Assembly (NCBI RefSeq): GCF_022808855.1
Contig: NZ_JAKZLF010000039.1
Coordinates: forward strand, 1-40,828
DNA: 40,828 nucleotides
Direction of reading: 5' to 3'
From: Anaeromyxobacter soli
GTDB taxonomy: Bacteria > Myxococcota > Myxococcia > Myxococcales > Anaeromyxobacteraceae
Shown: positions 952 to 4,145 of the stretch, piece by piece
Numbering within the stretch: position 1 is the first letter of the stretch
Layout: each line of letters opens with the position of its first letter
Notes under the pieces: model-generated
Seen by the model: the letters and a program-made list of their open reading frames with translations, nothing else
Told to the model about the DNA's origin: nothing
The model's database searches: none
Program-made: the position numbers and the translations under genes

Positions 952-982
952 GCCCTCCCGTCCGCACGCCGGGCGGGAGGGC
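952..982 (+). terminator. GC-rich hairpin between the Pro-rich gene and valS
   Basis: A perfect 9-bp inverted repeat, GCCCTCCCG (952-960) and CGGGAGGGC (974-982), has a 13-base loop. It starts 37 bases after the upstream stop and ends 13 bases before the valS ATG. No T-tract follows, so it may be a weak terminator or a structure in the valS leader. I see no T-box features. Confidence 0.4.
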
Positions 983-995
983 GAATCGAGACGTC

Positions 996-3900
996 ATGGA
1001 GAACGACAACCGGACCGAGCTCGCGAAGGGCTACGAGCACCGCGAGGTCGAGGCCCGCTGGTATCCCTTCTGGCTCGAGCGCGGCTACTTCCACGGCGAC
1101 GAGAACGACCGCACGCGCCCGCCGTTCTCGATCGTGCTGCCGCCGCCGAACGTGACGGGCTCCCTGCACCTCGGCCACGCGCTCACGGCGACCCTGCAGG
1201 ACGTCCTCATCCGCTGGAAGCGGATGAGCGGCTTCAACACCCTGTGGCTCCCCGGCACCGATCACGCCGGCATCGCCACGCAGATGATCGTGGAGAAGGA
1301 GCTCAAGAAGACGGAGAAGGTGAGCCGCCACGACCTCGGCCGCGAGGAGTTCCTCCGCCGCGTGTGGGCGTGGAAGGAGCGCTTCGGCTCGCGCATCGGC
1401 GAGCAGCACAAGGCGCTCGGCGCCTCCCTCGACTGGGAGCGCGAGCGCTTCACGATGGACGAGCGGTCCTCCCGCGCCGTGCGCGAGGTCTTCGTGCGCC
1501 TGCACGAGGAGGGGCTCGTCTACCGCGAGAAGAAGCTCATCAACTGGTGCCCCGACTGCCGCACCGCGCTCTCCGACCTCGAGGTCGAGCACGAGGAGGC
1601 GCACCCCGGCGAGCTCTGGTCGTTCGCCTATCCGCTCGCCGACGGCTCCGGCGAGATCGTCGTCGCCACCACCCGGCCGGAGACGATGCTCGGCGACACC
1701 GCCGTCGCCGTCCACCCGGAGGACGAGCGCTACCGGGGGCTCGTCGGCAAGAAGGTGCGCCACCCCCTCCTCGATCGCGAGATCCCGATCGTCGCCGACG
1801 CCATCCTCGTCGATCCGAAGTTCGGCACCGGCGCCGTGAAGGTGACGCCCGCGCACGACTTCAACGACTTCGAGGTCGGCAAGCGCCACGGGCTCGAGCA
1901 GCTCACGGTCATCGGGCTCGACGGGCGGATGACCGAGGCGGCCGGGCCGCTCGCCGGCCGGGATCGGTTCGACGCGCGCGAGGAGGTGAAGCGCCTCCTC
2001 GCCGAGAAGGGGCTCGATCGCGGGACGAAGCCGCACGTCCTCCCGCTCGGCCGCTGCCAGCGCTCGCAGACCGTGCTCGAGCCGCTCCTCTCCGACCAGT
2101 GGTACGTGAAGATCGAGCCGCTCGCGCGGCCGGCGATCGAGGCGGTGGAGCAGGGGCGGACGCGCTTCATCCCGGAGCAGTGGACGAACACGTACATGGC
2201 GTGGATGCGCAACATCCACGACTGGTGCATCAGCCGCCAGCTCTGGTGGGGCCACCAGATCCCGGCCTGGTACTGTCCGGACGGCCACGTCACCGTCGCG
2301 CGCGAGACGCCGTCCGCGTGCGCCACCTGCGGCAAGGGAGCGCTGCGCCAGGACGAGGACGTGCTCGACACCTGGTTCTCGTCGGCGCTCTGGCCGTTCT
2401 CGACCATGGGCTGGCCGGACCGGACGAAGACGCTCGAGACGTTCTACCCCACGTCCGTCATGGAGACGGGGCACGACATCATCTTCTTCTGGGTCGCCCG
2501 GATGATGATGATGGGGATCCACTTCATGGGCGAGGTGCCTTTCCGGACGGTGTACCTGCACCCGATGGTGCGGGACGAGAAGGGCCAGAAGATGTCGAAG
2601 ACGAAGGGGAACGTGATCGACCCCCTCGTCATCACCGAGCAGTACGGCGCGGACGCGCTCCGCTTCACGCTCGCGGCGCTCACCGCGCAGGGGCGCGACA
2701 TCAAGCTCGCGAAGGACCGCATCGAGGGCTACCGCGCGTTCGCGAACAAGCTCTGGAACGCGACGCGCTTCGCGCTCATGAACCTCGAGGGCCACGTCCA
2801 CCGCGACGTGGACCCCACGAAGCTCGCGATGACCCCCGCCGATCGCTGGATCCTGGCGCGCACGCAGCGCGCCGTGAACGACACCCTCGCGGCGCTCGAG
2901 GGGTTCCGCTTCAACGAGGCGGCGAGCACGGTCTACCAGTTCGTGTGGGGCGAGCTCTGCGACTGGTACATCGAGCTCGCCAAGGAGGCGCTCTACGGCG
3001 ACGACGCCGGCAAGAAGGCGGCGGCGCAGGCGACGCTCACGCACACGCTCAAGACCGCGCTCCTCCTGCTGCATCCCTTCATGCCGTTCATCACCGAGGA
3101 GCTCTGGCACGTGCTCCGCGCGCGCGTCGGCGCGGACGGCTGGCCCGACTCGATCCTGGCGGCGCGCTACCCGCGCGCGGCGGAGGTGGACGAGGCCGCC
3201 GAGCGCGGGTTCGGCCCGGTGATCGGCGTCGTCGACGCCATCCGCAACATCCGCGGGGAGATGAACATCCCGTTCAAGGTCGTGCTCGAAGACGTGGAGC
3301 TCGGCTCGCTCGACGCGGAGGCCGAGGCGACCGTTCGCGAGGAGCTCGGCCGCATTCACCGGCTCGCCAATGTGAAGGACGCGCGCGTGCTCTCCGACGG
3401 GGCGGTCCCCGCGAAGCGCGGCCAGAGCGCGGTGGCCGTCGGCGCCGGCTTCGAGGTCCGCGTCGGCCTCGCCGGCGCGATCGATCTCGCTGCGGAAGCG
3501 GCGAGAATCGAGAAGGAAATCGCCAAGTTGGATCAGGATCTCGCCTCGGTCGGGAAGAAGCTCGAGAACCCCAGCTTCGTCGCGAAGGCGCCGGCGGAGG
3601 TGGTCGAGAAGGACCGCGCGCGGCTCGTCGAGCTTCGCGAAAAAAAGCACAAGCTCGAAGCGCATCGTGCAATGCTCTCGGGTTCCGAGACGCTTTCCAC
3701 GAGGAGGCAATCCATGGAGAACCAGAACGAGCAGAAGCCCACGACCGAGGAGTCGCCGTCCACGCCGGCCGCGGCCGTCCAGGAGGCCGCCGGTCAGGTG
3801 CAGACGGCGGTCGCCGGGGCCGTCGAGAAGGTGGTCGCCACCGCGACGGAGATCGCGAAGGCAGCCTCGAGCGCGGTCGTCTCCGGCATCGAGGGCCTCC

Positions 3901-4145
3901 GCAAGGAGAAGAAGCCGGCGCGCCGCTCCGCCCGCAAGCCGGCGAAGAAGGCCGCGGCCAAGAAGGTCGCCGCGAAGCCGGCCCGCGGCGGCAAGAAGGT
4001 GGCCGCGAAGAAGGCCCCCGCTCGCAAGGCGGCGGCTCGCGGCGGCAAGAAGGCGGCTGCGAAGCGCGTCGTGAAGGCCCCGGCGCGCAAGACGGCCGCG
4101 AAGAAGGGCGCTCGCAAGGCGGCGGCGCGGCGCGGCAGGAAGTAG
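996..4145 (+). CDS. valS: Valyl-tRNA synthetase with in-frame C-terminal histone-H1-like extension
   Basis: Class I synthetase that charges tRNA-Val. The HIGH motif appears as HLGH at residues 58-61 after PPPNVTGS, and KMSKS as KMSKT at 532-536. The anticodon-binding domain and the C-terminal coiled coil (about 840-890) follow. ATG 996 is chosen because synthetase homology starts there; an in-frame ATG at 837 would run through the upstream gene. A normal ValRS of about 890-906 residues should end near residue 893 (HRAML). Instead the frame stays open for a further 143 Ala/Lys/Arg-rich residues from Met907, giving 1049 aa. That segment has its own ribosome-binding site (next entry). Whether the long fusion, the short product or both are made cannot be read from sequence. 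nadC follows after 9 bases. Confidence 0.95.
3714..4145 (+). CDS. Histone-H1-like Ala/Lys-rich protein, internal start within the valS frame
   Basis: Probable independent 143-aa product in the same frame as valS. ATG 3714 is preceded by GAGGAGG at 3701-3707 with a six-base gap, one of the strongest Shine-Dalgarno sites in the window. Residues 1-25 are polar and acidic, about 25-65 form an amphipathic Ala/Val-rich helix, and from about 66 to the end the sequence is a Lys/Arg/Ala/Pro array with repeated KKAAAKK and [11 protein letters not shown] units, like eukaryotic H1 tails and bacterial H1-like proteins. DNA or RNA binding by charge is the likely role, perhaps nucleoid compaction. The oddity is that no stop codon separates it from valS. 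It may be an ancestral separate gene whose upstream stop was lost, or a true fusion domain. Confidence 0.6.

Follow-up and report, generated by a model that had tools for sequence, protein, structure and literature searches.

Lys-rich, basic and disordered extensions that raise general tRNA affinity are found on eukaryotic aminoacyl-tRNA synthetases, usually at the N-terminus. Structures of valyl-tRNA synthetase (ValRS) have the C-terminal arm contacting tRNA. In E. coli, the short forms of ClpB, IF2 and CheA are nested in-frame genes with internal starts. Cas11b is also a nested in-frame gene with an internal start (PMC11899642). Appended domains occur on bacterial ValRS as well: in Anabaena, the CAAD domain of the cyanobacterial enzyme relocates it with little effect on catalysis (PMC4893482). 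A further point of comparison is provided by two Pseudomonas proteins, AlgP and PhaF; their repeat domains are believed to bind DNA and to assist in placing polyphosphate or PHA granules (PMC9239181). As classes, nested in-frame genes and domains appended to synthetases are both known already.

We describe here the valS gene of Anaeromyxobacter soli, located in a window of 40,828 nucleotides (the whole stretch of DNA that was analysed). As in the CAAD-bearing enzymes, a lineage-specific domain is appended to a bacterial ValRS; CAAD, however, is a membrane anchor, whereas the valS tail is a soluble polycation with a nested start. The membrane-spanning CAAD domain was sought in the tail and is absent (the tail is polycationic and lacks a Pfam match). 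With the extensions of eukaryotic synthetases the tail shares its basic, disordered character but not its position or its host, and an effect of the valS tail on tRNA is something that we infer. The resemblance to ClpB, IF2, CheA and Cas11b lies in a single frame with an internal start and two products; what differs is that the inner product of valS is a predicted H1-like protein inside a synthetase gene. A free tail would resemble AlgP and PhaF, which combine a helical N-terminal part with a long, disordered, Lys/Ala-rich H1-like end (PMC9239181), although these are encoded by separate genes with KPAA repeats and no synthetase, composition being the sole shared feature. The closest annotation model, NCBIfam NF011492 (PRK14900, valine--tRNA ligase, 1044 positions), spans the whole fused protein, and the tail alone matches its positions 906-1043. 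As this model already covers the fused form, the fused protein is not new to annotation; the model is named only as a valine--tRNA ligase and is silent on the nature of the tail and on an internal start.

The valS frame and its basic tail

The features of the locus are as follows.

996..4145, + strand: whole valS open frame (ValRS and H1-like tail), 1049 codons plus TAG (4143-4145) in a single frame; NF011492 covers residues 1-1048 with 2047 bits
3483..3677, + strand: Val_tRNA-synt_C, the C-terminal tRNA-binding arm, residues 830-894 (Pfam PF10458, E 3e-18)
3678..3713, + strand: stop-free linker, residues 895-906, read in the sequence and open in 9/9 genus members
3701..3707, + strand: internal Shine-Dalgarno sequence GAGGAGG, -11.8 kcal/mol with the anti-Shine-Dalgarno; its AGG AGG (3702-3707) encodes Arg903-Arg904, and no other Arg codon is AGG throughout the nine genus members
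3714..4145, + strand: nested frame for a probable free H1-like protein of 143 aa, pI 11.6, from ATG 3714 (conserved ATG and Shine-Dalgarno sequence, low local structure, homologous separate gene in genus g38)
3777..3902, + strand: putative helix of the tail, residues 928-969, of low confidence (AlphaFold2 model, pLDDT about 39-52)
3900..4142, + strand: H1-like Lys/Arg/Ala-rich end, 81 aa, charge about +35, by composition; modelled as disordered, without Pfam match

Direct reading confirmed that no stop interrupts the valS frame between the ValRS arm and Met907, as the original prediction had stated; ATG 996 and TAG 4143-4145 delimit one frame. The ValRS part is complete up to residue 894, with catalytic, anticodon-binding and C-terminal arm domains (PF00133, PF08264, PF10458). 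HLGH and KMSKT, corresponding to the HIGH and KMSKS motifs, can be read in the sequence, and the fused protein scores above the cut-off of NF011492. By its domains, motifs and family model, the predicted product of valS is a bacterial class Ia valyl-tRNA synthetase. Genomes of relatives in the order normally contain just one full-length ValRS match. The gene is followed by nadC, from 4155. At the start of valS itself (window 970-996) the Shine-Dalgarno sequence is weak, -3.6 kcal/mol against -11.8 at the inner start; as it is so much weaker, either the inner start may be the stronger one or the true valS start may differ.

The arm is followed by a linker of 12 residues and then, in the same frame, by a basic tail of 143 residues, the last 81 of which contain 28% Lys, 16% Arg and 33% Ala. 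In an AlphaFold2 model of the C-terminal third, the arm helices are confident to about residue 895; the linker is of low confidence, and the basic end, after the low-confidence helix 928-969, is disordered. By composition, charge and model the tail is thus a strongly basic, Lys/Ala-rich, disordered region, a feature that characterises the H1-like basic bacterial proteins AlgP, PhaF, Hc1/Hc2 and BpH1. It matches no Pfam domain, and the curated H1-like family model hist_H1_lk_Burk gives 13 bits, below its cut-off of 80, so that "H1-like" refers here to composition only. Likewise, the label "nucleoid protein" is a guess from composition. A search of the same genome for a second H1-like protein, with the tail as query, matched only the tail itself. 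The pattern KK[AP]xxKK occurs at seven places in this genome; wherever the frame is readable, the place is part of another protein, and at the one on contig C24 there is no frame of at least 60 aa. We also observed, in the frame from base 1121 of locus L204 (G000:C36), an RsfS-like (ribosome silencing factor) protein with a Lys/Arg-rich N-terminal extension, MAIKKKAIAKKATRKTTAKSGKAPARGG....

Conservation and loss of the fusion in the order

The check put forward with the original prediction, a comparison of the valS 3' ends of relatives, was carried out. The fusion of ValRS and tail, with an open linker, is present in 9/9 genus members (G000-G008, including the genome of the window) and, in frame, in 54 of the 68 sampled sequences of the order, these counts, like those of Shine-Dalgarno sequences given below, coming from genomes related to each other and hence not being independent. 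The rest of the 68 comprises one sequence frameshifted inside the tail (G050), one split (G116) and 12 without a fused tail. One of these 12, G096, groups with the outgroups in a tree built on the C-terminal 231 residues of ValRS from the valS 3' ends fetched across the order. A broader scan of genome contigs returned mostly ordinary tail-less ValRS from many phyla; its matches with the fusion included Anaeromyxobacter sp. PSR-1, to which genus member G001 corresponds, and one Myxococcus species.

It had been pointed out that three linker codons (TCG 3678, GAG 3687 and CAA 3708) are one base from a stop, and an error in the sequence or the recent loss of a stop had been offered as alternatives. 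As the fusion is present in all nine genus members and in most of the order, both alternatives are excluded; the codons carry no weight, the linker being open in the nine genus members.

Two loci show altered tails. In G050:C1 (L068, a one-contig genome) the tail is frameshifted near its start and the remainder lies in another frame, which may be a real lesion, phase variation or an error. In G025:C180 (L071), valS ends with TAA, and an out-of-frame Lys-rich remnant just before nadC looks like a decaying tail.

Within the order sample, tails differ widely in length and in their repeats, and several losses of the tail have occurred. This would fit a low-complexity sequence that drifts where a high-GC gene ends and is under selection for no function, fused or free. 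We regard drift as highly improbable: despite the sequence divergence, Lys and Arg together make up roughly 20-35% of most tails in the different families, 0/20 genomes sampled outside the order have ValRS tails, and the initiation signals are conserved.

Taking as linker ATG the first in-frame ATG at most 30 codons from the arm, 15 fused genomes have none, one of which (G016) has a GTG behind a purine-rich stretch. In most of these 15 genomes the tail can therefore be made only as part of ValRS, and the fused tail would, on these sequences, be a product in its own right. That these genomes still keep a basic tail argues against a role for the free H1-like protein alone, with the fusion as a tolerated read-through after loss of the valS stop. 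So does the finding that all intact tails found, except those of genus g38, are in frame with valS. Such a role would be in line with the strength of the internal Shine-Dalgarno sequence, with the separate gene of g38 and with the notion that ValRS could tolerate a long disordered tail without harm; we nevertheless consider it very unlikely.

In Myxococcaceae and two further families (loci L061-L094, assigned to Myxococcaceae, and L063 and L075), the tails carry an extra conserved block between the arm and the Lys-rich end, VxLxxELxxEL ... DHHDLGVAYMSMGLVDDAMREF, with one TPR-like motif that is sub-threshold (E 0.006). The strong internal start is mostly absent from the lineages bearing this block, and with the block present and the start mostly missing, the fused role seems to dominate there. 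The ATG, or the tail in its entirety, has disappeared from several lineages, so that neither product can be called indispensable in the order as a whole.

The predicted internal start and the split genes of genus g38

GAGGAGG is separated by six bases from the in-frame ATG 3714-3716 (Met907), and the 143-aa frame that had been proposed to begin there can be read directly in the sequence. The tailed genomes of families f1, f5 and f7 have 25 linker ATGs, 24 of them preceded by a strong Shine-Dalgarno sequence; within ValRS cores, such a sequence precedes 5 of 609 Met codons (0.8%). The nominal p value of this comparison is too favourable, the genomes being related. (Family codes are internal to the analysis; the label f4 is a default that also covers tail-less members of f3, f6, f8 and f9, and leaves the f1, f5 and f7 counts unaffected.) The motif is spelled as Arg-Arg (AGG AGG) in Anaeromyxobacter, as Glu-Glu or Glu-Gly/Asp in most others and as Gly-Gly in f5; it is thus kept in different codon phases and with different amino acids across families.

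When synonymous codons were shuffled with the amino acids fixed, the observed Shine-Dalgarno strength was reached with p 0.003-0.04 in every genus member (nine of nine) and with p 0.02 in f5. The remaining genomes were not significant, as GGAG already follows from the amino acids encoded there. The genus has 58 invariant Arg columns; only two, residues 903-904, have AGG in all nine species, and these form the Shine-Dalgarno sequence. Folding of the 44 nt around the linker ATG amounts to -6.8 kcal/mol, compared with -13.0 around core Met codons, and the GC content of codons 2-8 is 0.56 after the linker ATG and 0.66 for core Met codons. Reduced folding and lower GC are the usual marks of a start region. 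A chance Shine-Dalgarno sequence is rejected by the 24/25 versus 5/609 comparison and by the invariant AGGAGG of the genus. With an in-frame start and a properly spaced Shine-Dalgarno sequence, conserved beyond the needs of the protein, valS qualifies as a predicted nested gene.

The order also contains separate genes. In two species of g38 (G116 and G166), valS ends in TGA, after which come CCTGGAGGAACG-ATG and an H1-like gene that stands free, 140 and 144 aa long, respectively. At the same place, the fused sister G083 reads ATC AAG CCG GAG GGA ACG ATG. The free protein of g38 and that of G083 from its linker ATG both begin with MSE[K/R]TPEEM, and the two ATGs are homologous. In the tree, the split g38 species and G083 group together (SH-aLRT 99), nested inside fused lineages, which suggests that the split is derived, the direction being beyond proof by the tree. 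In g38 the free gene obviously starts at this ATG, which makes it very plausible that its homologue in the linker of the fused relatives also serves as a start. Relatives with two genes, which had been expected to speak against the original prediction, thus occur in this one genus; they support the linker ATG as a start and leave the fusion elsewhere intact.

These data bear on whether the fusion alone is made, the internal Shine-Dalgarno sequence and ATG either being left over from a gene that was once separate or marking a place where ribosomes pause, with no free protein. The Myxococcaceae, which retain the fusion yet mostly lose the Shine-Dalgarno sequence or the ATG, would fit, and outside the genus the residues alone can account for much of the motif. 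A relic should decay, however, and the synonymous sites of AGGAGG do not vary among the nine species, while across families the motif is retained with different codons and phases. A pause site needs neither an ATG nor a low-structure start region, and g38 uses the homologous ATG. Production of the fusion alone therefore appears unlikely.

One gene with two probable products

The explanation that we favour, and consider likely, is that valS is a nested in-frame gene giving both a ValRS-H1 fusion and a free H1-like protein. Ribosomes starting at ATG 996 would yield ValRS with a disordered, H1-like polycationic tail, as the frame has no other end. Others would be recruited to the internal AGGAGG and initiate at ATG 3714, as its conservation suggests, to give the tail alone as a free basic protein of 143 aa. 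The original prediction of one gene with two products has in this way gained strong comparative support, from the conserved fusion, ATG and Shine-Dalgarno sequence; the products themselves are predicted, a search for expression, proteomic or ribosome-profiling data having found none.

Polyanions are the most likely binding partners of the tail. When part of ValRS, it would lie beside the tRNA-binding arm and, since it adjoins the part that contacts tRNA, could hold the enzyme on tRNA, on ribosomes or polysomes, or on other RNA. The free tail would bind DNA, RNA or polyphosphate, as thought for AlgP and PhaF.

We found no paper on ValRS tails or an internal start in myxobacteria, in a search that covered few subscription journals; the one paper in which Anaeromyxobacter and valyl-tRNA synthetase occur together just names the genus in a list. 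New with respect to the searchable literature is an H1-like tail on a bacterial synthetase that is retained over a large part of an order and accompanied, in several families, by a start signal of its own. A well-annotated housekeeping gene here contains a probable second protein that automatic annotation conceals. With two probable products, fusion only, split genes and neither all represented, the order lends itself to separating the roles of fused and free tail. Tentatively, an H1-like protein binding polyanions or the nucleoid may be made inside an essential synthetase gene and also displayed on the synthetase. Chromosome or granule organisation and translation capacity would then be produced together and ValRS tethered to the nucleoid or to polysomes, by a gene that would be old in the order and would have become fusion-only, split or lost in some of its lineages.
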